64,000 bases of DNA, from the NCBI GenBank assembly GCA_032622095.1, contig CP136066.1, positions 170,696,664 through 170,760,663 of the forward strand, in the 5' to 3' direction. Every line of letters starts with the position of its first letter. Positions within the stretch are counted from its first letter, which is position 1. The notes under the pieces are model-generated. The model was given only the letters and a program-made list of their open reading frames with translations, made no database searches and had not been told where the DNA came from. Source of the DNA: Siphonodentalium dalli (lineage: Eukaryota > Mollusca > Scaphopoda > Gadilida > Siphonodentaliidae). Shown piece after piece: positions 12,920-38,764 of this stretch. Position numbers and translations under genes: made by a program.

Positions 12920-13270
12920 TTAACCTTTTACCCAACAAACCGGCCAAAAACGCCCAAATAAAGCTTCAACAGCCTAAATATCTTCGGTCTGTCTCAATAA
13001 CACCATACAAATATGGATATCATTGGAACCGGTTCATTGACCACATTGTGATGGTTACAGTTATGCCCTGTGCCAATGCATTCTCTTATATATGCGAGTC
13101 GACCATAGGTCGCCTCGCATATATAAGAGAATGCATTGGCCTAAAAAAAAATTTTTTTTAATATGTGTTAAGCCAATGCATTCTATTATATATGCGAGGC
13201 GACCTATGTTCGACTCGCATATATAAGAGAATGCATTGGCACAGGGCCGTTCTGTTGGGTAAAGGGTTAA
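12920..13270. mobile_element. Double-palindrome element, family A copy 1
   Basis: Ends are TTAACCTTTTACCCAACA at the left and TGTTGGGTAAAGGGTTAA at the right, with TTAA at each border as in piggyBac-type MITEs. A roughly 150-bp left arm (containing GGAACCGGTTCATTGACC) leads into two 69-bp palindromes at 13072-13140 and 13172-13240, separated by a short A/T-rich spacer. Each palindrome has 27-bp perfect arms that start GCCAATGCATTCTCTTATAT. The second palindrome is the reverse complement of the first. No coding capacity. TTAA plus CCC/GGG ends suggest piggyBac mobilisation, by inference only. Confidence 0.85.
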
Positions 13271-13770
13271 TAAGCACAGCGGTTAACACGTCTGAGTAGC
13301 GTATGCTGCGTTGTTCTCTCGTGTGATGCGATGCTCAATTTCACTCACATTGCCTCGTGAAAGTAATACAACGCATAACTTTCAGAAGGAAACACATATC
13401 AATGGTTAACCCATTCTATGCTAAACGGGTTCTCTCAGGATATACCAGCATTACCAGCAGACGACAAATGATAATACAAGTGCAGAGGAATACATATTCA
13501 TTTGCATGTGGGAAATGTTTAGATAATACATGTAAGTTCAACAAACGGTCGTTTATTGAACTTATTATCTGAACATTTCCTAAGGGAACTCTTCGTATTT
13601 AGTATAGAAAGGGTTAAATATTGTCTATTTATTTTATGTCCATCAACACTCTATATCAAAATATATATCGCCTGCCATTTCATAGAAACCCGAACGTGTT
13701 ATTATATACAACGCTCTTTGTTTCTATATTTTCTTTAATTCCTTTGTTTCCTGAGAAGTTATAACTATAT

Positions 13771-14223
13771 ATGTGACCCGCTATATCAAATCCAGTCGTA
13801 AGACGGGATTTTTTTTAGCCTGTGCCAATGCATTCTCTTATATATGCGAGTCGACCATAGGTCGCCTCGCATATATACGAGAATGCATTGGCCTAACAAT
13901 TTTTAATAACTTTTTCTTCTATTCTTTAACAATTTTATAATTTCACCCATACAAAGCCCCAGACAAACATGAGCAGACGACACTCTTCGATATGCTTTTA
14001 TATATGTGTGGGGCTCCCTGCAGAGTAATGGTTTTTATTTTATTTTATGTCCTAAAAATTGTAAGAAACATTTATTTAAAAAAAATGATAAAAACTTGTT
14101 AGGCCAATACATTCTCTTATATATGCGAGGCGACCTATGGTCGACTCGCATATATAAGAGAATGCATTGGCACAGGGTGAAAAAATCCCGACTTACGACT
14201 GGATTTGATATGGCGGGTCACAT
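13771..14223. mobile_element. Double-palindrome element, family B copy 1
   Basis: The terminal inverted repeat begins TGTGACCCGCTATATCAAA and runs about 45 bp through CCAGTCGTAAGACGGGATTT; the right end is its reverse complement. Inside lie the same 69-bp palindromes as in family A, at 13824-13892 and 14103-14171, again in inverted orientation. The 210-bp spacer holds a specific segment around GGGGCTCCCTGCAGAG. The outer ends have no similarity to those of family A or C. Copy 2 is at 25404-25853 in the opposite orientation. Confidence 0.85.
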
Positions 14224-15469
14224 TTACAGACAATATCGGCCGAATTCTGGTCCTGGTCTAGACCAGGGTTTCATGTAAACTATAGTCTAGACCAGGTCGA
14301 AACCACAATGATCGCCATGTGTTACCCAGCTTCGAGGCGAGTAAGCTGGGATTATTGGTCAGCACTGGTCCGTATTCTCGTCTTTTTGAAACTCAGGTTT
14401 ACGTAAACCATGGTTTGCCTTCTTATTGTCATTCAATCCTTTGTCGATCAGTTCATAATTCGAACCATGTGGTAACGTACAAGTTCTGGTAACAGAAACA
14501 TATGTATTTTTTGGAAGCATTTATATTTATGTTAACCAAATAGGAATTTTGTTTTATTGATATGCTGTGTTGAAGAAAGATTATAATTATATATGAACTG
14601 GACAAAATGTAATATAATCGATAATTATGTTTGTTATAGGTAATAGTCTACAACTGAGACCTAGTACCCCCCTGGTCTGAGATTTTTGTATAAACCGAGA
14701 CTTGAACCTGAGACGAGAATACCTTTTTCTGTTTTCGCAGTAACGATACAGATTGGTAATTTGATTGTAATCATGCGTGCGTTTATCTGGCTTTACAGTG
14801 GAGTTTTATTTATAACATCCTTGTCGTGTTTGAAAGCATATTACCGTTCTAAAGATGGATTAAGTAAGATTTTCGTGCTATTATTTCTAATATGTTATCG
14901 ATGGGTTTGGTTGACACGGATAAATAGGGAATGATAGTAGTTTTGCAATCGGAACGTAATCCGCATTGGATGCGGGTGTCTTTCGTTCCGTGTTTCTGAA
15001 ATTAATTGAGGTCGGAGCTAGTTTTGATAGTACTAATTCATCATTTTAGAATAAATTATTGCTGGACTGGATATACAATATAACAGCAAAAACTCTCAAA
15101 ATTATATTAAGACAGAACGAAAAATTGTGGTTCAATATAAGGAAATGTCCAATTAAATTGAATTAAATTAAATTAAATGCATGGGACCCCTGCTCTTGAT
15201 TAATGATTTATTTGGTCCAGTTTCTTAAGCCTTGACATTTCAAATTGGTTTATTTGTCATAATTTATCTTTAAACGTGGATTTGGAAAAAAAATACATGG
15301 CAATGGAAATATCTGCTATCGGGAGTGGGATACAACGCACCCATCTCGATTTTTTTCCCGATACACCCACCCCCACCCCCGTTGTGACATTGTTACATTT
15401 TCTGGAAAATTATTTTCAATAACTTCAATCACGGCGATAGTTATTTAGAAACTTTCTAAATTTTCAACT

Positions 15470-15610
15470 TATTGCAAATTCCCAAGTCCGCGAAATTACA
15501 TTGCACATGTCACCCCCTCACCCCAATGAATTGTTGAAAATTTTCAACAAGTACCTCACTATTTCCAGTTGTTGGAAATTCCCACCTGATATCCCCTATA
15601 AAAATGGTTC
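15470..15610. repeat. TTGGAAAT / ATTTCCAAC phrase repeat
   Basis: Several copies of a short inverted phrase (AATTGTTGAAAATTTTCAAC, CCAGTTGTTGGAAATTCCCA) occur here. The family is more abundant at 20240-20730 and recurs at 26255-26350. Confidence 0.4.
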
Positions 15611-15727
15611 GAAATGTTTTAAAGGGATGAATGTAATTTATGTGTCATATTTTGACGCAAAGTTGAACAATATATAGTTGGTTCTTGATCTGAACAAACA
15701 CTATTTTACGCTATACATTGATTGTAA

Positions 15728-15990
15728 AGGGCGCCGGTGGTCCCGTCGGTAGAATGCTCGGGGCATTATGTCCGCCATTTGCCATCTAGCGCTGACGAAG
15801 CTGGTTCGAATGCCGACAAGCACGGATTCGCGATCCACTCTAAGTGAGGATAATCTTATTCGTGTATCTGGGCAAGTTTGTCGGTCCCTTTCCGGTGTCG
15901 GTATTTCTACACACAGCGGAGTGTTTCTCGGTGAATTTAGTCTCTGCATAGACTTTCCTCCACCCGTAAAACTGACAACGTCGTGACATC
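15728..15990 (+). repeat. Probable tRNA-derived SINE head
   Basis: GGTGGTCCCGTCGGTAGAAT (15736-15755) resembles a degenerate pol III A box. GCTGGTTCGAATGCCGAC (15799-15816) resembles a B box with spacing typical of tRNA-like promoters. The segment cannot fold into an intact tRNA and continues into unrelated sequence, which fits a tRNA-derived SINE. The open frames on both strands here are not convincing genes. Confidence 0.45.
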
Positions 15991-16676
15991 AGCATAGGGG
16001 GGGGGGATGAGAAATCCGCACTAACCCTGCCCCATGATCCCTGTCGAACGGCGACAGCATACAGATACCGCTATACAACACGGATATAAGCCGCTTTCAC
16101 GTGCATGCTCAGGTTTGGAGACACCAACACACCAATCTCGATGCAGCGCTCAGCACGCTTTTGTCCATAGATTGTCATTGATTGTCGTTGATTGTACAAC
16201 AATGCGCCGATCCCAGCTTGAGACCAGGTGGTTTCGCGAGACCAAGTCCTGACATGGAACACCGTGATTATTAGGGTGGTCTAGACCTGAGACCAGAATT
16301 CAGCCGTATGGGTGTGAATACTCATAGATCATTATTCCTTTCATATTCGGTTATCTGTACCTGAACTATTTGTTTCCACGAAGATTTGGAAGGGAATAAT
16401 CCAGATATTTCAAATATATAAGCATGCTATAGAAGAGATAATTTCGGTAAGATGTGATAAATGTCTGGCAGGTATGAGTGTGACTCTCGACGGCCAAGAC
16501 TGGGATCATATACTTTATAAAGGAATACGAGTTTTGCAGATTTATCTGCTGTCAATACCAGACACCCCATCGAAGATCCAAACGACACTAGCAACAAAAC
16601 CAATGGACATGAGGTATCAATGTTCGGGTAACTCTATGTAAACACGACCCTAACTCTATCAAAAATTCCACTTTTC

Positions 16677-17053
16677 TTAACCCTTTACCCAACAAACCCG
16701 CCAAAATTTTTAAACGGCCAAATAAAGCTGCAACAGCCTAAATTATCTTGGGTCTGTCTCAATAAAACCATATAAATATGGATATCATTGGAACCGGTTC
16801 ATTGACCACATTGTGATGGTTACAGTTATGCCCTGTGCCAATGCATTCTCTTATATATGCGAGTCGACCATATGTCGCCTCGCATATATATGAGAATGCA
16901 TTTTACCATTTTTTCTTACATTCTTTAACAATTTTATAATTTTTAATGTGTTAAGCCAATGCATTCTCTTATATATGCGAGGCGACCTATGGTCGACTCG
17001 CATATATAAGAGAATGCATTGACACAGGGCCGTTCTGTTTGGTAAAGGGTTAA
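16677..17053. mobile_element. Double-palindrome element, family A copy 2
   Basis: Flanked by TTAA, it has the CCCTTTACCCAACA left end and the GGTAAAGGGTTAA right end. The left arm matches copies 1 and 3. The first palindrome (16837 to about 16903) has lost its last bases where it joins TTTTACCATT. The second palindrome is 16955-17023. Confidence 0.8.
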
Positions 17054-17064
17054 AGGCACGGGCG

Positions 17065-17155
17065 GCGTTCGTTGCAGAAATATTCATATTTGTTCAAATC
17101 GCCATAAACAGAAGGAATATCAAAATATATATAGTTTTGTTCATATGCCAAACAT
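17065..17155. repeat. Interspersed repeat copy (partner at 7039-7132)
   Basis: Same orientation as the partner copy and nearly identical through TTCATATGCCAAACATA. It starts about 12 bp after the end of family A copy 2. Confidence 0.65.
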
Positions 17156-18478
17156 AATCAGCGCGTAAATAGTATATTGTCGCCAAGACGAACGGTGGTA
17201 TACGTAAACAAGAGCCTGCTCGTATTACAAAAGTTTTTGCTTCTGTTTACATAACACAGCGTAATTATATTGGTTATTCACACATAAATGATATAAACGC
17301 CCTATATTATTTCCATATCAGGTAAACAGTAACGAATAACGCTCTTTATGTTTACCATATCCGGATCTAAACAGAAGCCAGGTTCTGTAACGTTTTTTGC
17401 TGTTGTTTACATAACAAAGGAAATACATTTGACAATAATATACTGTTTATGCCATATTTCTGATTAGTATAAGAACAAAATATGTCTATATTTTACTAGT
17501 ATTTCTGTTTATGGCGGTTTTTGACGGAGGTGAATATGTTAACAGCATGACCACCGCCAACGCCGTCAGTATCTTTAATGGTGTGGATAATTTGATTTGC
17601 CATGTACGGTTACATTTCTCAAACCGTATTTTGTTTCGTTATTACTAAAATAACAGTTTTCGTAGAATTGTAATCGAATCTCCAATCTGACTGTATACAG
17701 AAAGCAGATGCGTATCATTTGCGATAAATATTCCATGGTAATATGGCATACGGGGAAGAATATTACCACCTGTCGTTGTCCTCAGGTGAACAGAGACAAT
17801 CTGGAGGTTAAATGATCGAATCTGGCGCAGAATTGAATATTGGTAAGGAGTGTGTTAATAACGTGTCAATTTGTTCCTGTCATACATCTTTTATTGAGTT
17901 TGTCGTGCAAACCTTTTATCGAAACTCAATCAGATGCGTTTTGAGCATTGAGCAAGTGTAACAGTGATTGAAATATAATATGGTGCATGTAATATACTAA
18001 CAATCCTGGTTAATATAACACAACAATGGACCCGCCCAATCTACCCGTTTGAAAGTCGTTCTATAAAGCTACCCACTGTCCGTGTAAACATATTTTTTAT
18101 TTCCAAACCCAAAACAAATAACATAGTATACAGATGACACGTATATGCATAGAATAGTCAATGTATGGAAACGAGGATCAGGCAACAAGCCTTTTTAAAG
18201 TTTTCTCAACTATTGCAGAATGTAAAAGTTTAACTTCAAATTGCGCGCGTAAAACACGTCACTTCGGCCTCGCTTTCTCGTCTGATTTTGTTTGTTTTTC
18301 TTGGCATTGTGTTGTCGACAGTTACGCTGACAATTCTATATAACTGATTCTTTGGTTTATTCTAATAATTTGATAAATTCTTTTCGGAGAACATCAAGCC
18401 TAGATTTAATTTTATTTATAAGAAATCAACTTTTTATAATTTATATTCACCATGTTGTGTCTTTTTGGATTGGAAATA
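17156..18478. other. Intronic stretch, few signals
   Basis: AT-rich. Contains an AACGCTCTTT motif at 17338-17347 and phrases shared with 50.6-51.1 kb (CATATTTCTGATTAG-like and TAAACAGAAGC-like). No coding exon was recognised. Confidence 0.35.
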
Positions 18479-18681
18479 GCGCGCTTAATATACCACTTCT
18501 TTTGACTGGTACTCTGACAAATTGTAAATTGAAAATATATACTCAATGAGGATATGTACTGTGGAAAGATTTTGGTGTATCTTTTAGTCTCCGCATTCGA
18601 TCACTTTGAATCCTCATTGAGTATGTTCTAATTTACAATTTGTTAGAGTACCTGTCAAAAGAAGTGGTATATAAAGCGCGC
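18479..18681. repeat. Foldback with about 72-bp arms
   Basis: Left arm 18479-18552 starts GCGCGCTTAATATACCAC and runs to ACTCAATGAGGA. Right arm 18611-18681 is its reverse complement with a few differences, ending ATATAAAGCGCGC. The loop is 58 nt (18553-18610). A third partial end (CTCAATATACCACTTCTTCT) lies near 19085, in a field of GCGCGCTTAATATCGCAAT phrases from 18950 to 19110. Confidence 0.7.
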
Positions 18682-19469
18682 CATTTTCGCGTCCAATATC
18701 GCAATAATATTTCAAGTGGAAACGCTTATAAGCGCGCCGCTTGCGTTATTATTGCAATAGTATGCGCTGGATATCGCAATGTATTAAAGCAAATTATTGC
18801 TTCTTCTATATTGTTTATTGTATAAATAAATAGAGACAATGTTTTAGAATTTTATATAATTATAGTTGTATATGCTATATGTACAGTATATGTACAATAT
18901 ATACACAGTATTTATTTAATATAAATATAACACTATCGGGTCTGTATGAAATTTTGCGCGCTTAATATCGCAATATTTTGCGCTCAATATCGCAATAATA
19001 AGCGCGACAGATTTTTGGTATTGCACTATATAATCGCGGCTTTTTCGAAATTAAGCGCGCTCAATATCGCAATAAAGGCGCGCCTCAATATACCACTTCT
19101 TCTGGTACTGTACATTTGTAAATATTTTCATTGTAGAGTTTTATTCATATTGTATCATACCTGCATGCTTGTATGACGGATTATATGAATTGGTGTGTTG
19201 TATAGATATATATATGTGGGCATATTTTAATTACTATTCTTTATTATCACTCCGGTTCGAGCTCGGGACAATATTTAGCAGGGGTAAAAAAAAACACGCG
19301 AATAAATTACTATCGCGGTCTTGAACATGTTTGTGAACAGATACGATTAGCATTTAGAACTGTATCTTCCACCATAAATGAAGTGTTTGTTTACAATTGC
19401 CTCATAATCGGCAGCTTTGTCAACGTTTAAAGACGACATCAGCCCTTTAAAACACTTCTCCAAATATGT

Positions 19470-19660
19470 CCGTTATTTCGTCAAAGACACCTTTTCAAAT
19501 ATCTCCGTTATTTCGTTTATAAAAATAATTTCATATTTCTATATTTCGTTCTATATTTCGCCCTATTTCGCTGTATTTTCCTATTTCGATTTTCTATGTA
19601 CTTTCCTATTTCGCTTTTTCGTTTTATTTCATGTTTCGATAATTCGCTATATTTGACATA
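19470..19660. repeat. Field of TATTTCG heptamers
   Basis: TATTTCG or close variants (TTATTTCG, CTATTTCG) occur about a dozen times with irregular spacing. This looks like a decayed simple repeat. An open frame across it (19417-19656) has a biased hydrophobic and aromatic composition caused by the repeat and is not annotated as a gene. Confidence 0.5.
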
Positions 19661-20239
19661 TTATGGGATATGGTATTATATGATACCCTACATTTTGATA
19701 TTCAACTGAACATCACGTGCCTCCCGTGGTCGCGATTGTATGCCAATAGCCATCATATCGTGAACCCCGATATGTTATCTTTTGGTAGTCAAGCGTGGGC
19801 GTATTGGCTGGGTTAATCGGTTCCGATCGCGGCGTTTTGCATTGAAATAACTTGAAGAAAGTTCCGTGATGAATTGCTGCATGGATTCAACTCAGATAAG
19901 AATAAGATATTTTACGATATTTGCGTCTGAAACAGCGACGTAGCTAGCGGGTCTCTGTTGGGAAGGGGGTGTCCACCTTGGAAATTCAACTGCACCGCAC
20001 GCCTTAAATCAGACCAAACACAATTTTTTTCGGAATTCCATTTGCACCCCATTGCACTTCTAATGCATGCTCCCTCACAGGCCTGGATAAACGGCTCTTG
20101 TTGTACAAAATACCCGGTGTCAGAACATTTATAGATCTGAATCTGAAAATTGCATAAATCCTAACATTTAGTGGTCTAATTGCAGACAAATTGAAATGAC
20201 CAGGGACGAGAGCCCAGGACATACCGTGCTATAGTGTGA

Positions 20240-20730
20240 GGAAAATTTGAAATCTGAAAAAGAAAATCGCAAAATCATATTATCTCGATGTGAGAACATT
20301 TTGAAATCTCAACAAAAACATCTGGGCTGGCCTCAGGATTTCCTAGCGTTGGAAATCTCAAACCTCACACCCCCACTTAAGTTGTAAAATTTCCAACTGA
20401 TGACCTCATTTTTTTTCAAATATAGGAAAATATTGTGGTCTTAAATTAGCTAGCAGTTTTTGACTAGCCACGGGGACAGACAAGCTTTCCAACTGTTGGA
20501 AATATCCAACCTAACAACCACCCTAAGGTTGGAAAATATCCAACTGATGGCCATTTCAGTCCAAAATTTTGACGAAAAGTAGTAAGTATGCAAATGTTGG
20601 AAACAACAAATCCCCCTAATAAATTGTTGGAAAATAAAACTACAATAACAATTTCAACCTATCGTTGGTGTGAAATTTCTAACTAATGTTGTGTCAGGTA
20701 TGAAATATCCAACTGTTAAAATTTTTACCA
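20240..20730. repeat. Array of GTTGGAAA / TATCCAAC phrases
   Basis: At least nine occurrences of TCCAACTGTTGGAAATATCC-type phrases or halves, at irregular 40-80 bp spacing, ending with a C10 run at about 20752-20762. It is the same family as 15470-15610 and 26255-26350. Confidence 0.5.
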
Positions 20731-21183
20731 AAGTTGGGGGTGAGACAACACCCCCCCCCCCTCCCCCGTACCTCCCTGTCGCCACGTCCTGGTCTGAAAT
20801 CCAACTTCGGAAGTTTGTATTCTATTCAACAATTGTTATAATTGCTCTAGGAAGACAGTTTGTTATGCACATATCCCGCAATGCTTCCATCTTATGATGG
20901 AGATACTCAAAGTACTCGTTCAAGAATTGCTTCAGATGACGAACACACACAGCCATTAGGTGATTGGACACATTCAACGAATCAACATTTGTGCCAGAGG
21001 TGGTGTTATCGTATGGTGGTACAAACGTTCTGATTACACTATGTATATGATGATCTGCAATGATAGTGAATATTTTAAATTTCTCAACAAACAGACCAAA
21101 CCTGAATGGTCGAATTCACCATCGAAGTATGTTTGGACAAAAGACGTGGTGCTCACTTCGACCTCCATCCCAGAGTTACTCAC

Positions 21184-21324
21184 CTAGAGCCGCGCAAATG
21201 TTGATGCAGAAACCGTGTGAGTTCTGATCTTCGTCTTCGATACGTATTCCGCTTAGGTCCCGGTATCTCGCGTCTTTGAAACAACCCAGGTATTGTGCTA
21301 TGTCCTTGAAATCTGTGTCTTGTC
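21184..21324 (-). CDS. PAN-WSC secreted protein, exon 2: first half of WSC domain
   Basis: Read on the minus strand, this 141-bp exon sits between an AATCACAG acceptor and a CTAG|GTGAGT donor. It encodes 46 whole codons with split codons at both borders (phase 1 and phase 1). The peptide contains YLGCFKDARYRDLSG, then HGFCINICAAL: the N-terminal half of a WSC domain, with its first three cysteines and the GCF and RDLSG hallmarks. Joining to 7592-7430 restores a glycine codon and the continuous GYQYAGLQ core. The 5' phase matches the donor of the exon at 26877-26571. An open frame on the other strand (21276-21470) is a shadow. The call rests on family knowledge of WSC domains and on matching phases, not on transcript data. 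Confidence 0.88.
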
Positions 21325-21643: not shown

Positions 21644-22107
21644 TTAACCCTTTACCCAACAAAACGGCAAAAAACGCCCAAATAAAGCTTCAACAGCATA
21701 AAATATCTTCGGTCTGTCCCAATAACACCATACAAATATGGATATCATTGGAACCGGTTCATTGACCACATTGTGATGGTTACAGTTATGCTCTGTGCCA
21801 ATGCATTCTCTTATATATGCGAGTCGACCATAGGTCGCCTCGCATATATAAGAGAATGCATTGGCCTAAAAAAATTCTTTTTTAACACTTTTTACCATTT
21901 TTTCTTACATTCTTTAACAATTTTATAATTTTTTCTTACATTTTTTAACAATTGTTATAATATTTTTCTACATTCTTTGACAATTTTATCATTTTTAATA
22001 TGTGTTAAGCCAATGCATTCTCTTATATATGCGAGGCGATCTATGGTCGACTCGCATATATAAGAGAATGCATTGGCACAGGGCCGTTCTGTTTGGTAAA
22101 GGGTTAA
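21644..22107. mobile_element. Double-palindrome element, family A copy 3
   Basis: TTAA borders, left end TTAACCCTTTACCCAACA, same long left arm as copies 1 and 2. Palindromes at 21797-21865 and 22009-22077. The spacer is AT-rich with repeated TTCTTACATTCTTTAACAAT phrases that also occur, shortened, in families B and C. Confidence 0.88.
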
Positions 22108-22243
22108 AGAGAAACACATCTGATGGCTTTATACGAACATATACCTCTTCAAAACTATCCAATCGGAATCATCCTACCAGGAACGGTTTCGAAAATACGA
22201 CATTCGACATTTTAGATTTTGAGATAAGTATCGACGGGAAACC

Positions 22244-22680
22244 TTAACCCTTTGAGTGCCAGGTCCGATTTTTGTATCAACCCATATACCCTGTGCCAAT
22301 GTATTCTCTTATATATGCGAGTCGACCATAGGTCGCCTCGCATATATTAGAGAATGCATTGGCCAAAAAAAAAATCATTATTTGTTATTATTTTTTACAA
22401 TTATTTACAATTTTAATATTTTTTTCTTATATTCTTTAACAGACTTGTTTTGTAGGTTTAGTGCCAGGGAATCTTACGTTTTTCATGGGCATCAAAATTA
22501 TTACTATGAATACTTGGTGATAGTTTTGAGTTATAACATGCCCCTAAGATTTTATCCAGTTTGTTTTTAAATTCGCTATAGCATGCTTAGACATACCAAA
22601 AAATATTCAACCCTAAAAAAAAAATTCTAAAAAAAATGGTTTTTAAATGATTTGGAAAATTTCACATTCTCTATTTTCTT
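22244..22680. mobile_element. Palindrome element, family C copy 1 (3' truncated)
   Basis: The left end reads TTAACCCTTTGAGTGCC, followed by ATTTTTGTATCAACCCATAT and one 69-bp palindrome at 22295-22363. The downstream body (GGTTTAGTGCCAGGGAATCT to CTATAGCATGCTTAG) matches 37489-38764 closely. The matching right terminal repeat is not found, so this copy is probably truncated or decayed near 22670. Confidence 0.75.
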
Positions 22681-22862: not shown

Positions 22863-23332
22863 TTAACCCTTTACCCAACAGAAGGGCCCTGTGCCAATGC
22901 ATTCTCTTATATATGCGAGTCGACCATAGGTCGCCTCGCATATATAAGAGAATGCATTGGCTTAACACATATTAAAAATGATAAAATTGTCAAAGAATGT
23001 AGAAAAATATTATAAAACTTATAAAATATTATAAAAATTGTTAAAGAATGTAAGAAAAAATTATAAAATTGTTAAAGAATGTAAGAAAAAATGGTAAAGT
23101 GTTAAAAAAGAATTTGTTTAGGCCAATGCATTCTCTTATATATGCGAGGCGACCTATGGTCGACTCGCATATATAAGAGAATGCATTGGCACAGGGCATA
23201 ACTGTAACCATCACAATGTGGTCATTGAACCGGTTCCAATAATATCCATATTTGTATGGTGTTATTGAGACAGACCGAAGAATTTTAGGCTGTTGCAGCT
23301 TTATTTGGGCGTTTTGTTGGGTAAAGGGTTAA
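22863..23332. mobile_element. Double-palindrome element, family A copy 4 (inverted)
   Basis: TTAA borders. The short arm is at the left (CCCAACAGAAGGGCCCTG) and the long arm at the right, so the element is inverted relative to copies 1-3. Palindromes at 22893-22961 and 23122-23190. The right border abuts AGCAACCAATCC; a related repeat without the element reads TTAAAACAACTAATCC at about 31948, supporting TTAA as the insertion target. Confidence 0.87.
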
Positions 23333-23334
23333 AG

Positions 23335-25403: not shown

Positions 25404-25853
25404 ATGTGACCCGCCATATCAAATCCAGTCGTAAGTCGGGATTTTTTTTACCCTGTGCCAATGCATTCTCTTATATATGCGAGTCGACCATAGGTCGCCT
25501 CGTATATATAAGAGAATGCATTGGCCTAACAATTTTTTATCATTTTTTTTAAATAAATGTTTCTTACAATTTTAGGACATAAAATAAAAAACATCCATTA
25601 TCCTGCAGGGAGCACCACACATATATAGAAGAGTTTCGTCTGCTCATGTTTGTCTGGGGCTCTGTATGGGTGAAATTATAACATTGTTAAAGAATACAAG
25701 AACAAATTATTAAAATTGTAAAAAATTGTTAGGCCAATGCATTCTTTTATATATGCGAGGCGACCTATGGTCGACTCGCATATATAAGAGAATGCATTGG
25801 CACAGGGTAAAAAAATCCCGACTTACGACTGGATTTGATATGGCGAGTCACAT
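25404..25853. mobile_element. Double-palindrome element, family B copy 2 (inverted)
   Basis: Left TGTGACCCGCCATATCAAA and right reverse complement, with TA on both flanks. Palindromes at 25457-25525 and 25733-25801. The spacer segment (GTCTGGGGCTCTGTATGGGT) is the reverse complement of the spacer in copy 1 at 13771-14223. Confidence 0.87.
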
Positions 25854-26350: not shown

Positions 26351-26570
26351 AAAGTCTGGATATCAGTTTGAAAATTAAAATTCAAGGGTGCAATTGATTT
26401 ATCATAGATTTGGGAAATTTGGTCTTGAAGTGTGTATTTGAAAACATTAAGCAGCTCAAACAAAGACCCGCGCCCCTGATTTGCCATTTGCTATATCTTA
26501 CCAACCTGCAACAAAATAACAGTGTAGCGTGTAGACATATCGCACCTTAGTGTTACATGTAAAGGCTAAC

Positions 26571-26877
26571 CTTTCTCGAACACAGCGGCAGCAGTGTCCC
26601 GTGTGTACAGCTCACATTCGATCACGTAACAACTTGGTGCGTTGAATAAGAACCTCCGACATCCGGGTATGCTGAGGCAGAACGCAGCACAGTCCTCTTT
26701 TGATGATGCTGTAATTGACGCATAGTTCGTCGGCGGGCACTGGGTGGGCGAATCACCGCGCGGGTTGGTCAGCTCTTTCATTCTAAACAACTCCGCGTTC
26801 GCTCGAAATGTGAATATGATCATCACGCAAAGAGATTGAATGGTGATTGTAGGCGTGTGCGTCATCATAACATGCAT
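26571..26877 (-). CDS. PAN-WSC secreted protein, exon 1: signal peptide and PAN/apple domain
   Basis: The minus-strand start is ATG at 26877 (or the in-frame ATGs at 26868 and 26865). The N terminus is a signal peptide: a hydrophobic run SLCVMIIFTF, then a small-residue site RANA before ELFR. The mature part has six cysteines in a PAN/apple-like pattern: QCPPTNY, then KEDCAAFCLSIPGCRRFLF, then SCYVIECELYT. Apple/PAN modules are extracellular binding domains. The exon ends at a AAAG|GTTAGC donor in phase 1, which matches the acceptor phase of 21324-21184. The frame stays open 83 codons upstream of the ATG (to 27126), probably by chance, since that part lacks domain features. The product would be a secreted PAN plus WSC protein, perhaps binding glycans, in extracellular matrix or immune recognition. 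That role is inference. Confidence 0.82.
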
Positions 26878-27870
26878 TGGTACCGTGCAACGCTTAGCAA
26901 AATATGTGATACGTCTGCAGTACAATGTTTTACTCAAGAAATAATAGCTGGTCGGTATAACGTAGTTGTCAATAAAAACACACGAGACCGCTTCTTGACA
27001 ATAACACGAAGTCACATTCAGAGAAGACACAACGATGTAACTGCGAACTGCTGATATGCGCGCTATCTCATATACGAATCGAATGTGAGCCTGTGCGCGC
27101 AATTCTAAGGCATAAACTTGACGCATGTGCAGAAATCCGTCCCATATTGGCCCGGAATGCAGTTGATGGCTTAAGAAACAGCGGGCTGTTTTCAGCTGGC
27201 TCTGTTCTCTTACAGAACAACGGGGCTTTGTTAGCTTAATAATGTTGCCATTATATGTTATAGTATGTGTGCTTCGAAGATGCAGCTGCCTCTCTAGTAT
27301 TGAGCGATCTGCTGATCAAACATGTGAATCTTACGTGAATAACAATACAGATAGTAAGCAATTATCTGTGATCTGTTTGTCGTGATATGGCATACCGGCT
27401 GAAACGACGGTAAAACCCCAATATACAAATCTTTCGTTTCGCGTTTGACTGAGTGCAGGTATACTAAAATAGCATAGACATATACATTTGCTGTGACCAA
27501 TAGAAAATTATATTGACTTTGCGGTTTAAGTGTATACCAGCCGTTTATTGAAATGTTCCTCATTCTATATTAAGCGCGGGTTTTCCCTATAATAATGAGG
27601 CGGAGACCACAAGTTCACAACTCATAAACGAAACTTTTGAATGTGGAATGTTTGGTAACATTTTTCACAACATCTACTCTTTAGTATTGCAAATCAGAAG
27701 GCTCCGTTTTTAACATCGCATGCTGATATAAAAGGACACATCCTAACAAATTGAACAGTTTCGCGCACGAAATAAAAAGCTTCGCATTGGTTTGTGTTTA
27801 CAAATTAACCGGGAATCCGAATCACACAATTGTGCGCAATAGTGCTTGGATTATATCAATATTTTTCACA

Positions 27871-28480: not shown

Positions 28481-28688
28481 AAACACTAAAAAAACAAGCA
28501 GGAAATGTTTTTTTCAGTTGCGGAAAAAATTGCTTGTTGGTGGTTTTGACCATCCACCCACCCCGGCAGAAATTTTTTCACCCCCCCCCTGCTGGCAAGG
28601 GAAATTTGTAGCGCTGGTCGATCGGTGTAAATACGACAATAGCGGAGGTCCAAATAATATATTGGCCTAACAATCTTGACCTTGTAAT
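28481..28688. other. Repeat-derived spacer
   Basis: Contains further C-run and CATCCACCCACCCC phrases. No gene seen. Confidence 0.35.
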
Positions 28689-28762
28689 CCAGTGCATTCT
28701 CTTATATATACGAGGCCTCCCATGTGAGACTGGCGTACATGTGTATACAAGAGAATGCATTG
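28689..28762. repeat. Decayed single copy of the 69-bp palindrome
   Basis: The arms GTGCATTCTCTTATATATAC and ACAAGAGAATGCATTG are still visible, with a heavily mutated centre. AACAGGAT follows where intact copies have CACAGGG. No outer terminal repeat of family A, B or C is recognisable. Confidence 0.6.
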
Positions 28763-28779
28763 AAACAGGATACTTAATG

Positions 28780-29890
28780 CTGCACAAGCGCGGCTCCCAT
28801 CATGAAAGTGTTAAACTGCCTCCTCTGGGCTCATAGGTTATTTTCTGGTATAGAAGACATACTGCTAACGAAATAGTAGAATATTGGAACGTTATGGTAT
28901 CAAATATGATGGGGCATATTTAAGCCGGTTCATTTAATATGTATTGGGCCAGATGCAAGGCCCCACTTAGCACCCTGTGTCAAATCGACAGCAGGTTCTC
29001 TGGTTCTCTCGGTTCGAATGTCCCATTTATCCCAATCAGTGATACATTGTTGCGATGTTTACACAGGGTGATGACGAAAAGGGAATAATTCTCCACGATA
29101 TTTATCACAACACACACATTGCCTTACATTACAGCGAACATGCACAATACGTGGGAAATGTCATATGTTTCGCACGAAATAATTGTTATGTGTGTGTTTA
29201 TATCGTCGAACTATTAATTATACATTGTAATTTCCTATTTCTCTTATAGTATTGAGTTTCTTGTCTTGGGAGAATAATTCGTATAAGATGAGACCCGTAA
29301 CAGTCCTCATTGAGTGCACTGAAGCGTTAGATAAGTGTTGTTACTGTCTTGCCGTCTTTTATTTGAAAAGTGCAAATGAAAAAATATAGTGGTCGATACA
29401 CTAATTATTCAAAATACCAATCAAACAGCAATTAGTAACATCAGTGTCTTGTTATTAATATAGTCCATATGAAGAACGTTCTTCTGCTCTAATTGATGCT
29501 GACGCTTCCCTAAATAATAGCTGAGAGGAGGATGATAACTTGTTCAAATTATCGACACGTGGCCCACTCATCGATATTCGCACCATTCTTCTTTTTTTCT
29601 CTTTTGTTTCCTTCTTGTTCACATTACAGCTCGCTGTCATTTACTGACAATTATGAGCCGGTCCAGGTGCTACCACGGCCGAGTAACTTTATAACCCTGT
29701 GGTGACTCCAGTAGTGTTCTTTAGCGTGCAAACACCGAGGCGTGTACACGGGTCAGCCATTAATGTCCGCACCCGATCGGACAGCGTGCTGCACACATGA
29801 CAACATAGCTGGACAAGTGTTGTAATGGGGGAAGTGGGCATTTTTGCATTCGGATCTTTATACAGTGATCTCGAATGAGATTTTCAACCT
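28780..29890. other. Intergenic stretch between the two divergent PAN genes
   Basis: Part of the 3.4-kb region between the starts of the PAN-WSC gene (26877) and the damaged PAN gene (30237). A possible basic peptide frame lies at 29640-29455 on the minus strand, without a recognisable domain. No clear promoter element was found. Confidence 0.35.
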
Positions 29891-29894
29891 TACA

Positions 29895-30604: not shown

Positions 30605-30644
30605 GTAATATGAATGTGTATAGAAATACGTTAAAGGGACATTC

Positions 30645-31470
30645 TGTCTACGTACTTTGGAAGAAGGTATAAGAAAAGTTGACAAATACACGAAATATTG
30701 ATATACCGGCTTCAGATGCTCTGAAAAACACTTAACATCCATGTTTCAGCTGTTTTCAATTTTTCGCACATAAGTGTCAAAATGCTCTCTATTTCTACAA
30801 TATCAACTAACACGGACCGCTCTTTTCTGTCCCATGACTGTTTTTGTTTGGTATCCACACATCGTGTTCAATGTTGCATTTTTTTTATTTCAATGCGTCT
30901 GTCATGGACATATAATGGTCGTAGAAAGGTACACGTAGTTCCAGTATTTATCGACCTATTTCGATACCGATAATAATTCAAAAGCGCATATTATTATGTG
31001 AATAATGGACCACAAATCACCAAGTGCGCGGCTTTAAACAGAAAAAAATGGCTTTCCAAAATGGTATTGTCTACGTAATTGAGAAGGAGGTATAATTTAG
31101 GTTGACAAATACATGAAATATTGATATACCGGCTTCATATGCTCTGAAAAATACTTTCCATGGTCACAGCCATTTCCATCTGTTTATAATTGTTCGCACA
31201 GAAGTGAAATAATCGGTCTTTATTTCTGCCATATCAGGAATAGACTAACATGAAACGCTCTGTTCTGTTCCATGTAGTGCGCATGGGTGTTGTTTGTTTG
31301 TCTGGGACCCAAACACCCTGTTCAACGTTGTGCTTTTATTACTTCAATGCGTCTTTCTGTGACAAATAATGCCCGTAGAAAGTTAGTTCATGTATTTATC
31401 GACCTATTTCGATACCGGGAAAAATTCGAAGGCGACTATTGTTAACTGTATTTTGGAGCGCAAACCGCCA
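30645..31470. repeat. Tandem duplication, two diverged 423-bp copies
   Basis: Blocks such as GACAAATACACGAAATATTG, ATACCGGCTTCAGATGCTCT, TTCAATGCGTCTGTCATGGA and TTTATCGACCTATTTCGATA recur 423 bp apart, at 30700 versus 31123. The duplication begins just after the donor of the damaged PAN exon, so it would lie in that gene's first intron. No coding signal. Confidence 0.7.
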
Positions 31471-32839
31471 TGTGGTTCAAATAATCTTGCACGGAAAGAC
31501 TTACTCATGTCATATATAACCTGGTCTCAGACTGCATCAATAAAGAGCGTTCCCTGTTAATCTATTCACGATCTGGAAACAGTATAGAACTTTTGTCTCT
31601 TCTGTGCACAAATTGAAAACAGCCGGTTCCGGGGATGGTTAACACTTTTAATATATAACGACTTTATATGTCACATAATGACTGTCCCTAACGAATAACG
31701 AATGTGACCTGTAGATGCGCCCCCACCCGCTACGTCATCTCGCCTCTGACTCTTGAGTTTGTTCATCTCATTGTTCTTTTGATTAGTAATACACAGCGGT
31801 TTGTTGTAGACATAACAAAAACCAGAGTAATAACAAGAAAACCATAATCAGAAATGGTAACGCCCTCAAGATCATATTATTAGCCATAAATATAAATTAT
31901 AATATAAAATATATTGGTTATATGAATTCACCGCCTCAGAATTCCGTTAAAACAACTAATCCTTCGAATTATTACAAACAACTACGGCTTATTACTGCAG
32001 GTTTCTCATTCACCAAACCAGAAAGCTTCTAAATGCGGATAAAAAATCGGAGGTATTGTGTTCCTGCCAAGAGTGCATTGTCCAGCCATTGTTCATACAT
32101 AAACATCGCAAGCAATTAACGCGGTCATAATTGTTACATACTGCAACTATAAGACATCCAGTGGATACACACCCCACGAAAACCTGAAATGTGTTGTCCT
32201 GCCATAAATCCCATCGTTATAGCTCAATTTGTCACGGCCAGATTAGCCTTCCTACAATATCCATAAACAAGATCATATATTATATACCCATGATTTTAAT
32301 TATAGAATATAAAATATATTGGTTTCGCGAATGACCAACTCAGAATTCCGTTAAAATAACAATAACAACCAGCACCTAATTAACGAACCGGCGACCGACT
32401 CGGCCGTCTCCGACCACAACCATCAGTGGGCTGCAGAACGAAAAATATCAATAATAGTTGAAATATAAGACTTACAAATTATCTTTTAAATTTCTTTTAT
32501 TGGTAATTGACATAGCTTGTCACAAACCAAAAATCAACATTATTGACATAATAATGTAAAGGACAATAAACGAAATTGAAATTCCCAACTACGCCTTTTA
32601 CCGGTGACCGGCCTCCTGATCGCGCAGTTCGACTTTTAAATAATAAACCGGAAAAAAACAATATTCTATTTATAAAAGTCCCATCGGCGCATCGGCCCAC
32701 ATGTTTCTAATATTTGGCCACCAGTATACACCCGATGGGCGTTAACTAAACAATAACTCCGACAGCTAAACAAAGCCAACAATTCACTGAAATGATTACC
32801 TGGGATAGACAAAGTGTGAGGTCGGTACAAGTATGTATC
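31471..32839. other. Non-coding stretch containing a repeat copy
   Basis: Holds the partner (31950-32185) of the repeat at 23335-23640, and a short internal duplication (ATATAAAATATATTGGTT with TCAGAATTCCGTTAAAA) at about 31905-31955 and 32308-32355. No gene seen. Confidence 0.45.
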
Positions 32840-33690
32840 GACCTATCTTGATACCTGGAAAAATCATGATGGGAGCTATTGCATTTGAACGATTTTCGAT
32901 GAAAACATGCCCGTCAGCAGTCATCTTGGATTTTACTCTAAGCATGACTAAATCGTTTGGCGCATCATGCAGGCCACATCGTCACCAAAATTCATATGGA
33001 TCATCCGGGTGACCGACCTCTTGATGGGAGCTGACAATTTTCCCGAATTATGCTTAAAACATGACTGCCAATAGATGTTATTCTTTGTATGACTAAATCC
33101 TTTAGCACACCATACAGGTCACATCTCGCGTCCGATCGTCATCAGACGTCATATTGATATTCGGGTTGACCTCTAGATGGGACATTACCATTAAAAAAAA
33201 TTTATTCTGTTAAAAATCATGGCCGTCCGTGGCCATATTGGATTTCACATTTGAATCCATCGGCACACCATGCATCCCACAATTATTGGCGAAATGTTTT
33301 GAAAGTTTACAGGCATGTTTGGGGTCTCCTCTTGATTGGAGCTATTTAATTTGAACGATTTTCGATGTAAAACATGGCCGCAAGCAGCCAACTTTTATTT
33401 TACTCTTTGCATTACTAAATCCTTTGGCACAGCCTACAGGCCACATCCCTCATCAGATCGTCACCAAACTCAGGGTGACTTCCTGATTTGAGCTTACCAT
33501 TTGTTGTTTTCGAATTTTGTTGAAAACATGGATGCTATCAGCCATTTTGAATATTACACTTTGTATGACTAAATCCTTTAGCACACCCTTCAGGTTACAG
33601 GTCAGATCTCTCATCCGATCGTCACCAAACGTCATATGGATCTTCGGGGTGATCGCTAGATGGGAGCTTACCATTTTAGCTCAAATTGAC
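32840..33690. repeat. Tandem array of about 155-bp units, five copies
   Basis: CATG plus a C/G-rich phrase and CAGCCAT-like sequence recurs at 32906, 33060, 33219, 33373 and 33527, spacings 154-159 bp. Each is followed by 'gactaaatcctttagcacacc' type sequence, a 'catccgatcgtcaccaaac' block and 'gatgggagctta'. Units are 70-85% alike by eye. Related single units occur near 6040-6300, 28345 and 35185. Confidence 0.7.
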
Positions 33691-33962
33691 AAGTTAAGTT
33701 TGAGCTATTGTCTGTGTACGTCCGCGTCTATGTGTGTGCGTGGGTGGGTCAATATTTTTAATTAGCACGGGCTACAGGTCGTACCGTTGGTCTGATCATA
33801 ATAAATTTGGCATAGCTGTTGGCATTGACATGTAGATGGAAATGAGTTATTTTGAGGTAATTCGGAAGAAAAAAACATGGCTATCAGCGACCATCTTGGA
33901 CTTCACAATTTAATCACCTGCTATTGATTTCAGCGGGGGTGGTCTAGATACTGTACAAACTA

Positions 33963-34695
33963 TAGGGGTGGTATTCACCGGCTGGGTTTATTATATAGTC
34001 CAGGTAGTTTTACGAGGCGACGCTCAATGCGAAGCTATCGGTGGACATCAATGGGAAGACATCGCCGCGCGGTATAGGATTATCCAATCAAGGTGATTGG
34101 CGGCAATCATAGATTGACCACCGGTCACATAAACATGCTGCGCGTAACAGTACACGTTTGGTTCATTTCAACAATGAGCAACCGATGAAAAGTACGTGGG
34201 GCAAAATATACCACCGACGAGCGTTTTTGGTCATTGTGGAGAGAAGAATCAAAATATTAGAGAACAAAGAAACCGACATAATTCACCAGCGCCGGAAAAA
34301 TGATGCCTGGAATTATATTTCTTTGGAAATGGCAGGGAAATTTCCAAACAGAACCAAAAGACAAACAAAATTATTCTGAGACGTTATCTTCTTGGCTCTT
34401 CATTTTCACGCTGTGCTAATTAAAACACCTCAATAATATCATTGAAACTCATTCTGCAGATGTATACGCCAGCATGAGTCTCCACACAATTATACCAAAA
34501 ATTATACCGCTATACATGCCGATTGTGGCCGGTGAGTGTTCACGAATTAGTCGTGAGACGGTGTCAATTGACAAGTGACAAAATCTGATAGATTGGATCA
34601 ATCACATCATCGAGAGCGTGTGTCCTTGGCGTTCAGCCACTACCAAATAAACTACCTGGCTTATAAATTAGTCTCGCTTGGTGAATACCGCCCTA
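33963..34695. mobile_element. Harbinger-like DNA transposon remnant
   Basis: The left end TAGGGGTGGTATTCACCGGC and right end GGTGAATACCGCCCTA are inverted, and both arms continue to a CCAGGTAGTTT block about 45 bp in. TA lies at both borders. The interior carries a Myb/SANT-like protein fragment (34158-34379) of the kind found in PIF/Harbinger elements. No DDE transposase frame is present, so it is an internally deleted copy. Confidence 0.7.
34158..34379 (+). pseudogene. Myb/SANT-like (MADF-type) DNA-binding protein fragment
   Basis: The frame reads LVIVERRIKILENKETD, then KNDAWNYISLEMAGKF, then NRTKRQTKLF, before a TGA at 34377-34379. This is the pattern of the Myb/SANT-like domain of PIF/Harbinger accessory proteins: a first helix with a 'ILENK.TD' turn, then 'K..aW..I', then 'RT..Q'. 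A convincing start codon is missing: the frame opens with TTG, and the first in-frame ATG is at about 34185. The third helix is cut where 'LW.N' would follow, so the copy is broken. In active elements this protein assists the transposase in binding the ends. Confidence 0.6.
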
Positions 34696-35039
34696 GAAGT
34701 CATGGCGGGTTTAGACTTTAATAAACAATTATCACTAGAAGAATTACCAAGACAGTATGAACTACGACACGAACTGAAATAATACAAGAAATGGTAACGC
34801 CATCAAGATCATATTTTTAGCCATATATGCAATATAACAACTTTAATGTGGTGACCGTGAAAAAATATGTATATAGGTAACGCCTATGTGGCTGATTATA
34901 TGTGATATGTTTTTTTCTAATTTCATTTGAAACAGTGGTCTGAGTAGCGCATGAAATAGCATGCAGAATAATATTCGGGCAAAAATTGGCCACGTATGCC
35001 GGGGTGGGTGGGTGTTCGATTTCGCAACTCAACATTTTT

Positions 35040-35475
35040 TTTATTATGCAAGTCTTTTTGACTGTTTTTGCAATGAGTTTGGCTTAAACACATTAGGGTA
35101 AGAGTAATAATGTAATTATAACTGCTAAACTGACTGCAGACAGTTATCGTATTGTATTTTGTTGCAAATTATTTTGAAATCCAAGATGGCCACTGGCAGC
35201 CATTTTTTTTTGGCCGAATTACCTCAAAATGACTCGTTCCTATTTACATGTCAATGTTTACATCCATGACAAATAGTATGCATAGAAATTCATATACAGG
35301 TGTTTACAGTGAATTGCCCCCCCGCAAATCTCTGTTTTAGTGTTAAATGGGGGGTTGGGTGTCCAAAAATTGGCGGAAAAAACTGCCGAAAACGGAAAAA
35401 AATTGGGACGCGGGGCCCGGGGGTGGGTGGGTCACAACAATGGTCGAAAGTAAAAAATCAGCATACGCGCCTGAA
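35040..35475. repeat. Interspersed repeat with G/C homopolymers, copy 2 (inverted)
   Basis: Reverse-oriented partner of 28035-28480, with the shared CTGCAGACAGTTATCGTATT, CCCGCAAATCTCTGTTTTAG and GGCGGAAAAAACTGCCGAAA blocks. Confidence 0.65.
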
Positions 35476-35489
35476 TTTTTTTTCCGGGT

Positions 35490-36240
35490 AAATTAATATA
35501 TCGTCCAATGAGGGTTAATTAAAATATCGTCCCATAAGAGTTAATTAAAACTTGGACCCATGGGGGGGGGGGGGGGGTAATTGAAATATGATCCCATTAA
35601 GGTCAATTAAATAGAGACTAATTAATTGGTTCCGCGAATTATGTTAAATAATTCACGAGAGGCGAGAGATGTCGGTAAGAAACGAGTGCGCGTTAGCACA
35701 AGAGTTTCTTATACAAACGTCTCTCGCCTCGAGTTAATTGTTTAACGTAATTCTCGGAACAAATTGATTCCTCTATTTATTTCACTTCTGCATCAATTTG
35801 GTTCGCCAAATATGATTAAACACCCCGAACTAATGCATGAAAGTCCCGATGTGAAGAAAGATCAACCATCGAAAATTCAGTCTAGATCAGTAAGCCACAT
35901 AACGTCAATGACGTCACAAGAAATGACATACTTCACTAGTGACATTACCATTTTTGATTAACGGCGTTTTAAATGTAAATCGCGCATATAAGTGTAATAA
36001 AATATGGTAACGTTACTTAATTAAAGAATAATTATATGGTCCCATTATGAGGGTTAATTAAAATTAAAATATGGTGTCATAAGTGTTGATTAAACTACGG
36101 TCCCACTGGGTGAAATACAATATAGTCCCATGAAGGTCAATTAAAATATGGTCCAATGAGGACTAATTATAATATGCCCCCTCCCCCATGATGATCAATT
36201 AAAACATGGTCATAAGAAGGGGGGGGGGGTAATATCTGAA
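35490..36240. repeat. TTAATTAAAATATGGTCCCAT phrase array around a foldback
   Basis: A phrase close to GGTTAATTAAAATATGGTCC recurs about ten times at 35490-35610 and 36000-36235, with G runs of 12 and 10. Between the two halves lies a foldback at 35619-35767 with arms GGTTCCGCGAATTATGTTAA / TTAACGTAATTCTCGGAAC and inner stems GAGGCGAGAGA / TCTCTCGCCTC. The short open frame 35764-35961 has no recognisable domain. Confidence 0.6.
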
Positions 36241-37488
36241 CATTCTTCAATTCATATATAATTCTGAGATATCCTCGGTACACATAAATAAAAATGATGT
36301 TTAGAATTTGGCAACATTGTATGTTAAACAACCAATGTGAAGGGTTGGTGTTGGAACTTTTCTTAATAACATCTCTATCATAGCTCCGATATATTCCGCA
36401 TACAAAGAAATGAAAAATCAATATTTACAAACAGCACGAATGAGTAACGTGGGAATTGGTTAATAATTACCATCCAGTTCATTTAGAATATAACATGCCG
36501 ATATTTGTCGCGTATAACTAAATGAAAAGTTCACTAAACGATATTAAATAACATTATTGGACGGTGAGGTGGAGACTTCCTTCGTGACATCCTTTGGAAA
36601 GGAATATAAAACTGTAATAAAATTGAACAAGGAGTTCAATCCAAAAACAATTAAAAAAAAAAAACAATAATGTTTTTTTTTTAATTTAAAAATAATGTTT
36701 AAATGATCAAAATGTGCGTAAAGGGGCCGCCGCTGAATACAGACTCTGTCTAAGATCAAAATGTGCGCGAAGTCGCACAAATGGGCCACAGGTCGCTGAA
36801 TACAGACAAAAAGGAGCCTGTTTCGGCTATTTTAGTAATAGAAGTTACTCCAGTAGACTAACACAAGCGGTATGGAATAAATTAGACAGACTAAGCAGGA
36901 ACCAGTTATAAATTATGGAATTGTGTGTATCCTGCAGCATGCCCTAGGTTTGCAGATATCATCAATTTATAAAATATTTTTTCCAATTGCAACCGGGTAA
37001 ACATCCTCTATGTATTTATTTTCAAATATGGCAAATATGGCACATCAGTTGAATTGGAACTTAGCAACTGATATGTCATGGATATGTCTACAAAATGTCA
37101 ACAGTGAGTCGAAAGTTAAGATTAAGTTAATCTCACTGTCCTGAGATCAGCTTAAAATGTATTACAGCCAAATAACCAAAACACGTGGTCGGTGTAATAG
37201 CTTGCAGCGGAAAATGGTATACCACTGGATATGCACGGGATATTTAAAATTAGTCTTTGTAAAATTGAATGCATATACCTTATATTATTATTGTATGTGC
37301 ACATGGGTTACTGTATTTGTCCACGGCATCGATGCATTAGAATTTCCATTTAGCAGTATGGAAATTTGACCACCCAGTTAGACCCAGTATACTCGCATTG
37401 CACACTGACCTGGAAACTCCAATCATTGTATGTGGTAACCAAATGCCTATCAGCCAGTATTTGTAAAGAATCTTCACATTTGCGTGTA
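36241..37488. other. Non-coding stretch, nothing recognised beyond short duplications
   Basis: A 60-bp phrase (GATCAAAATGTGCG with CGCTGAATACAGAC) is duplicated at about 36703-36760 and 36753-36810. No gene seen. Confidence 0.4.
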
Positions 37489-38764
37489 TTAACCCTTTGA
37501 GTGCCAGGTCGATTTTTGTATCAACCCATATACCCTGTGCCAATGCATTCTCTTATATATGCGAGTCGACCATAGGTCGCCTCGCATATATAAGAGAATG
37601 CATTGGCCTAACAATTTTTCATCTTTTGTTATTATTTTTTACAATTTTTTATAATTTTAATATTTTTTTCTTATATTCTTTAACAGGTATATTTAGTAGG
37701 TTTAGTGCCAGGGAATCTTATGTTTTTTATGGGCATCAATATTATTACTATGAATACTTGGTGATAGTTTTGAGTTATAACATGCCCCTAAGGTGTTATC
37801 CAGTTTGTTTTTAAATTCGCTATAGCATGCTTAAGGGTGGATACACACATGCATGTAATCTCTGTATGTAAAATACATGTATTTTACATGGCCACGCCAA
37901 TAATTGACAACATTAATCACCTACGCGCGAGCGGTTCGTTGTTAACAGTCCAGACAAGTGAGTAATTATAAGCGAAGTCAAACTGTCTGCTGTCATGACA
38001 TTTAAGGCCAGTCCAAAACATGTCTTCTCTGCGGAAATTGGTCAAGTCTGGGTGATATCTGGCATTTTATTAATACACGAACACGAGATGCGACACGTCT
38101 GGCATATAGAACATGTTCGACCATGATGCTTGTTTGGCGTGGGGTCTCGAAAGCTTCAAATCGGTAAGGGACTTAGTTGAATACATGTATATCGGTCGGA
38201 ATAATCTGGGCAAGAAGGTACAATATAATATGTTTTACTTAAGTAGCTCAGAGTTAGCCACCCCGCCTGGTAGCTTTCGGGATCATAATATAGCCGCAAG
38301 TCGGGGATCACATATAGCCACAAGTCGGAGAAATCCTGATCCACCACTGCTATAAATATCAAAAGAGGACTCGTAATTATTTACATATAGAACGCCCACC
38401 ATATGGGTTATCCCACGAACAATTATTTTAAGTGTTCTGGCGACTCGGTTCAAGATAACGGCTTTTCTACATTCCCACTTAATTGGAACTAGAAATGAGA
38501 GCGGTCAACACGTCGACAATGATTGGGTTGTCAGTGGACACATATTACATTGTCTGTATGATCCATGTAAAACGCCAAATACACGATAATTACAGAGATT
38601 ACATGCATGTGTGTATCCACCCTAAGCATACCCGAACAAAATTCAACCCAAAAAAAAATTGAATCTAAAATTAAAAACCATTTTTTTTTTTTTTTTTTTA
38701 GGGTCGATTTTACACACCGTAAATTAGGGCCGATGAGATCGGCCCGTGGCACTCAAAGGGTCAA
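37489..38764. mobile_element. Palindrome element, family C copy 2, with nested insertion
   Basis: The left end TTAACCCTTTGAGTGCC and right end GGCACTCAAAGGGTCAA are inverted (one mismatch in the TTAA). A single 69-bp palindrome is at 37539-37607. The body is closely similar to 22244-22670 up to GCTATAGCATGCTTA, where a second element (37834-38623) interrupts it. Without the insert the element would be about 490 bp. Only one palindrome is present, unlike families A and B. It is a non-coding piggyBac-type MITE by its ends. Confidence 0.85.
37834..38623. mobile_element. Nested DNA element with AGGGTGGATACACAC ends
   Basis: Terminal inverted repeats of about 29 bp: AGGGTGGATACACACATGCA at the left, reverse complement at the right, ending TGTGTATCCACCCT. 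The insertion site in the host reads CTTA on the left and AAGC on the right. The uninterrupted relative at 22590 reads GCTTAGACATACC, so the target was at or near TTA/TAA. A 22-bp perfect palindrome centred on ACATGT is at 37867-37888. No transposase is encoded. Confidence 0.8.

Follow-up and report, generated by a model that had tools for sequence, protein, structure and literature searches.

How does one and the same palindrome come to lie inside several families of small transposable elements with different ends? The question is raised by a 64,000-nucleotide stretch of the Siphonodentalium dalli genome (the window; C6:170696664-170760663 in an assembly of nine contigs and 2,226,750,531 bases, 2.23-Gb), in which a hairpin-forming core recurs within miniature inverted-repeat transposable elements (MITEs) of families A, B, C and G, each with its own outer part, or shell. 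It is a long-standing puzzle that certain non-autonomous transposons attain copy numbers in the tens of thousands while others stay rare, and the recurrence, within one genome, of one internal module in unrelated shells that likely belong to two superfamilies bears on it. The presence of a hairpin module with fixed ends in several unrelated kinds of MITE, and in very many copies, suggests that the module has passed between these small mobile elements, and it may have helped them to spread. The reading that we favour, and to which we give even chances, is that several unrelated MITEs took up a discrete module, which was probably once able to move by itself into TA sites, and that it was then amplified under the shells' own transposases.

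A hairpin module inside four element families

The palindrome measures 69 bp, with perfect arms of 27 bp, and folds into 27 pairs, a T/C mismatch, five further pairs and a loop of 3 nt. Its arm, GCCAATGCATTCTCTTATAT (27 bases, searched with up to three mismatches), has 29 matches in the window and 0 in 100 shuffles. All the element ends named in a first-pass annotation of the window are present at their places, and the palindrome does lie, as had been claimed, inside four A, two B and two C elements. It is not present once in each, however: A and B elements of the window carry two palindromes in mirror orientation and C elements one, 14 altogether, and beside the three families first described there is a fourth, G, with one decayed copy.

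Family A is represented on the forward strand by elements at 12920..13270 (piggyBac-like, TTAA; cores 13066-13140 and 13172-13246), 16677..17053 (cores 16831-16902, with the inner arm damaged, and 16955-17029) and 21644..22107 (cores 21793-21865 and 22009-22083), and in reverse, on the minus strand, at 22863..23332 (cores 22887-22961 and 23122-23196). Both B elements are on the forward strand, at 13772..14222 (Sola2-like target, flanks ATAT/ATTT; cores 13819-13892 and 14103-14177) and 25405..25852 (target duplication ATAT; cores 25451-25525 and 25733-25807), as are the C elements at 22244..22644 (core 22289-22363; a right TTAA end was not found, and the end was set where similarity to the second C element stops) and 37489..38764 (core 37533-37607). 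The 1,276-bp length of the latter is due solely to another element nested at 37835-38622, which we take to be PIF/Harbinger-like; its inverted ends are long (GGGTGGATACACACATGCATGTAATC...), TAA stands on either side of it, and its empty site is found in L042. The G remnant (28664..28814, minus strand) consists of a shell end at 28774-28814 (TTAACACTTTCATGATGGGAGC) and a single decayed core at 28689-28769, 75% identical over the match. Among the copies read, A elements are 252-470 bp long and B elements 441-477 bp, the latter with inverted ends of 43-46 bp and no coding sequence; no open reading frame (ORF) of at least 150 aa was found within the A or B elements of the window, and both families, being short, non-coding, bounded by inverted ends and high in copy number, have the properties of MITEs.

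The 27-bp perfect arms hold, but the shared unit is larger than the 69 bp first proposed, and comprises CCCTGTG, the palindrome and an AT-rich spacer. By eye, the module starts with the same outer CCCTGTG at the left and right junctions of A, B and G and at the left junction of C, seven kinds in all; the base in front of it is G in family A, whereas the other three families share an A there (ACCCTGTG). On the inner side, similarity among B, C and young G extends through CCTAAC or a close form into the AT-rich spacer, with motifs like TTCTTACATTCTTTAACAATTTT that are present in A as well. Since the outer boundary is shared and the similarity continues into the spacer, the families have in common not a bare palindrome but a module whose outer end is fixed. 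(Overlapping loci L002, L004 and L006 were excluded from the junction and shell tables and from the core folding set, as were, from that set, cores with a match below 67 bp.) No Rfam family was found in 12900-38800 at gathering scores, and the core pattern had no match in IMG/VR.

The shells differ in their targets. Those of A, C and G start with TTAACCCTTT and end in TTAA. Among 22 A elements listed (L001 and L003 being near-duplicates), 19 have TTAA at both ends and the other three have a mutated or shifted end; C has it at both ends in L042, the right end of the second C element of the window reading GGGTCAA; and G has it at both ends in L043, the left end in L008 being mutated. On these target duplications at both ends we class A, C and G as piggyBac-like MITEs, a kind of element with CCCTTT-type ends. 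The genome holds at least 128 matches to the piggyBac transposase domain (DDE_Tnp_1_7), among which a single gene is in some cases represented by two matches. In ten of these loci, of about 4 kb each, neither the core nor an exact A, C or G end was found, and no autonomous A, C or G element was identified there; in one piggyBac family, represented by L049 and L056, similarity begins on one side exactly at TTAACACGTTGAGTGCCGG, near C's TTAACCCTTTGAGTGCC, and continues on the other side beyond TTAA. A short TTAA-ended element without the core lies at 13406-13617 of the window (TTAACCCATTCTATGCTAAA / TTAACCCTTTCTATACTAAA), and a similar end stands at 4129 of the piggyBac locus L057.

For B, a TA duplication was dropped in favour of AWWT on the flanks of eight elements. 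When the terminal T and A are taken as part of the target, the two flanks are identical in six of the eight (ATTT, AAAT, ATTT, AAAT, ATAT and ATAT); the remaining two, one of them the window element at 13772-14222, differ by one letter; and all eight fit AWWT, although duplication of just 2 bp within a favoured AWWT site would fit equally well. AWWT, including ATAT, AAAT and ATTT, is given for the duplications of Sola2-type elements in PMC3627910, and B, assigned by target site alone, is likely Sola2-like. The first-pass annotation had named two likely target types, but the pair is TTAA, for A and C alike, and AWWT rather than TA for B; its proposal of a modular unit in unrelated shells is borne out by the same boundary joined to differing ends and targets, though not by three unrelated targets. 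Given TTAA at A, C and G and AWWT at B, one module sits in shells of two likely superfamilies.

The same evidence bears on another account of the common core, which the annotation had named as its own refutation, namely that internal deletions in a single longer element gave rise to A, B and C. All three do have the module in common, and with it a part of the AT-rich spacer. Against such an origin stand the TTAA at A and C ends and the AWWT at B, the existence of C-type shells without the module, and the lack of the core in the ten piggyBac transposase loci read; this single-ancestor model was rejected on target duplications and ends, and we consider it barely credible.

Copy number, empty shells and variation

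Across the whole genome the 27-base arm, again with up to three mismatches, occurs 240,072 + 238,964 times (reversed control, 0), which by arithmetic corresponds to about 240,000 palindromes and roughly 0.7% of the genome. CCCTGTG joined to the arm occurs 135,818 + 135,206 times (control, 7 + 3). Junctions with the module number 51,364 for A-left, 18,018 for C and at least 19,870 for B ends (by exact tag); about two thirds of the 271,024 CCCTGTG-plus-arm ends lie outside these three counts, which leave out G and A-right. Typing of 49 cores in 20 random 10-kb stretches and the window gave 12 A-left, 11 A-right, 6 B, 4 C, 8 G, 7 other and 1 with its outer end missing; three of the seven others are ends of modules with foreign flanks (one in L015, two in L016), and the rest were read as old or broken copies. 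Along C1, roughly between 0.83 and 0.92 Mb, C-type modules are spaced some 11.2 kb apart, in a pattern resembling a large tandem array.

Most of the L-numbered loci were picked for their core content, and figures on shells with and without the module were therefore taken from unselected DNA (L009-L028 and the window). There the core accompanies 12 of 12 long A-left matches, 6 of 6 B ends and 8 of 10 G-type matches, the other two G-type matches resembling decayed cores by eye; one A-right end (L022 716-739) has the module's first bases only. Full-length C-left matches are divided, four with the core and three without (26-bp partial matches not counted). Core-free C-type shells are found at L007 2014-2201, L028 5152-5373 and L028 about 1620-1760; these relatives read CAACCCATAT or CAACCCATAA followed by TTCC or TTCT, at the place where C reads CAACCCATATA followed by CCCTGTG. 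Two G-like ends, in L037 and L039, are followed by an altered half palindrome, in L037 also with a long run of the AT-rich spacer motif, and are perhaps a further shell variant.

Variation within A was examined in 21 elements (L001 dropped as a near-duplicate of L003). A variant shared by at least two copies occurs at 12 of 146 left-shell sites, at 13 of 79 spacer sites and at 1 of 138 core sites (left shell versus cores, p=0.003, with linked sites counted as independent). Private substitutions, which are mostly post-insertion, amount to 31/3041 in the left shell and 16/2728 in the cores (p=0.08). The A core thus varies less than the shell between source lineages. With shared variants scarce in the core and no significant difference in private changes, the data are most simply read as showing that the core has been kept in the copies that gave rise to others, without detectable protection in dead copies. 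An earlier A comparison with CpG excluded gave differences of 168/5365 in the shell and 16/2505 in the core, and private ones of 50/5365 versus 14/2505 (p=0.11). A corresponding B comparison (shell 293/2285, core 16/976; private 46/2285 versus 14/976, p=0.32) was set aside, the elements not being co-oriented and the shell figure therefore inflated.

Old and young copies also differ in the inner stem, which tends to CTCCC/GGGAG in the old and is CGACC/GGTCG in the young. In eight hand-picked old copies (two of which, L016 883 and L028 6860, were typed as other, not G) 196 of 255 pair cells still pair, versus 2,294 of 2,346 in 75 other copies, a comparison made with no shifted or shuffled pairing control. 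Both sides have changed at pairs 30/40 and 31/39 in four of these eight hand-picked, uncontrolled copies each, and eight more both-side changes occur in a single old copy each. Such changes suggest that hairpin pairing was kept across a change of letters, via selection or hairpin-templated repair.

How the module may have spread

On the favoured reading, the module would originally have been a small transposon that was bounded by CCCTGTG...CACAGGG and went into TA within T-run/A-run sites. The full unit (CCCTGTG, the 69-bp hairpin, the AT-rich spacer, the mirrored hairpin and CACAGGG) would have been acquired whole by several MITE families, namely the piggyBac-like A, C and G (TTAA) and the Sola2-like B (AWWT), and the composites would have been copied by transposases recognising their outer ends, the conserved core possibly helping this copying in cis. 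G appears to be the oldest carrier among those seen. What is observed is the constant outer boundary, the differences in ends and target duplications, the C relatives that lack the core, and the scarcity of shared variants in the A core relative to its shell; that the module moved by itself, in which direction it spread, and that its core aids copying in cis are inferred. Consistent with insertion at TA, this dinucleotide flanks B's module on both sides, in the middle of the inverted repeat, and C's on the left. Four modules with foreign flanks are present among the loci read, few as they are: L016 5790-6158 and L036 690-1055 retain both module ends (the left CCCTGTG altered in L036) at sites of the form TTTTTTA, module, TAAAAA-type, with TA on both sides, and the truncated modules in L015 and L034 have TA at the one end left. 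They are too few to settle whether the module was transferred by insertion or by recombination.

Several observations weigh against this reading. The junctions of A (TATG / CCGT) and G (AAAGA / TTTTT) have no TA duplication, and C carries half a module only. Searches for module-free shells by exact patterns, which diverged empty sites escape, gave 0 matches for two B arms 2-16 nt apart, and for A (gap up to 28) 5 matches that all contain module remnants, so that no true module-free A was found; empty shells are thus known here for C-type elements but not for A or B, and the annotation's alternative of preferential insertion into MITEs is not borne out by these searches or by the few foreign-flank modules (two with both ends, and two truncated). 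By eye, the flanks in L016 can also be read as a direct repeat of 14 bp, one position mismatched, that lies immediately beyond the T-run; insertion at TA would not predict such a repeat. The spacers of the foreign-flank modules are of B type, and three of the four have the T-run of B, so that these modules may be B derivatives. In a count by position, 22 of 99 T-run ends have no B tag within 480 bp (100 were listed, and one beyond the last listed B place was dropped). Of 15 pairs of such ends, 2 are without a B tag, a number that mutation of the tags could produce by itself, and 19 of 30 paired ends have their own tag. Gene conversion among active copies could also keep the cores alike, and no transposase for the module was identified, though no search was aimed at one.

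Some of these points support the main rival, possible but clearly less probable in our judgement, in which the module stayed put and the ends were exchanged: palindromes break and recombine at hairpins, and template switching or gene conversion between elements would have given new outer ends to an old piggyBac-like G-family module. The old copies in G (L020, L028 and the window) are, over the longer matches, 75-86% identical to the young core; in L001, L003, L015, L046 and L047 the palindrome is interrupted close to its centre or at it; and the non-TA junctions in A and G, and the half module in C, also speak for this rival. Random exchange points, however, would not yield one outer boundary at seven junction kinds in four families; both ends of B have the same shell; and no mixed A/B, A/C or B/C element was noticed among the elements read, in which no dedicated search for them was made. 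Two of the broken copies, L046 675-1150 and L047 652-1100, share flanks; in each a B end and a half palindrome stopping near the hairpin centre are joined to GGC-rich/AT-repeat DNA.

It can also be asked whether the core does anything at all. Ordinary nested insertion and luck would suffice if the module were one MITE of many that landed in MITEs that happened to be active, with a functionless core. Nesting is seen here, both in the C element interrupted by the TAA-flanked element and in L028 3302-3738, where the TTAA end of a G-type copy is also the beginning of an A element, and private changes in the A core are not significantly fewer than in the shell. But luck would have had to place the core in four families, with junctions as numerous as those counted for A, C and B, and module-free A and B shells were not found, while shared variants are fewer in the core; we hold this to be quite improbable. 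At the other extreme, the hairpin would be a transferable cis-acting propagation module, such that any MITE shell acquiring it, whatever its superfamily, was copied better; unrelated shells would have acquired it repeatedly, and module-bearing versions would have replaced module-free ones, through routes such as replication, repair or escape from silencing. We regard this as unlikely, if less so than luck. If the core does act in cis, the same sequence could be added to or removed from piggyBac and Sola2 donors, which would make the question of copy number testable.

Other features and known systems

The window also contains features unrelated to the module. An open 504-aa ORF at 53532-55046 (minus strand) has Mab-21 domains and is a relative of cGAS-like receptors; its matches to both make an animal origin of the window probable. 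Another ORF, at 26566-27126 (minus strand), has PAN-domain matches slightly below curated cut-offs, and two overlapping ORFs at 62404-63641 are built from a tandem repeat (SHYHNCDELSLIKYCVGLID).

Nested MITEs and chimeric transposons are already known (PMC9942856 and PMC3627910), and plant long terminal repeat retrotransposons are reported (PMC6911290) to target palindromes. In the open-access literature, as far as its accessible text extends, no description was found of a non-coding module common to MITEs of two superfamilies at such copy number, and the DNA words of the core were not found in the text of papers.

The A, C and G elements resemble piggyBac-like MITEs in their TTAA ends and TTAACCCTTT starts, and differ in carrying a module found also in an element of another target type. 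B is like the Sola2 DNA transposons in its ATTT, AAAT and ATAT duplications, all AWWT (PMC3627910), and differs in having 43-46-bp inverted ends and no coding sequence, the likeness being one of target site alone. The Sola2-Fanzor chimeric elements described in the same paper, whose families share one end region, in some cases including the transposase, likewise have one large common part in different families with the rest differing; here, by contrast, the families have in common a non-coding hairpin module in their interior, and their ends belong to different target types. Lastly, in Blepharisma the BogoMITE is occasionally inserted inside unrelated internal eliminated sequences (PMC9942856), and so offers a parallel for one MITE within unrelated elements, whereas here the composites, in four shells or more, have themselves been amplified, with junctions in the tens of thousands both for A and for C.

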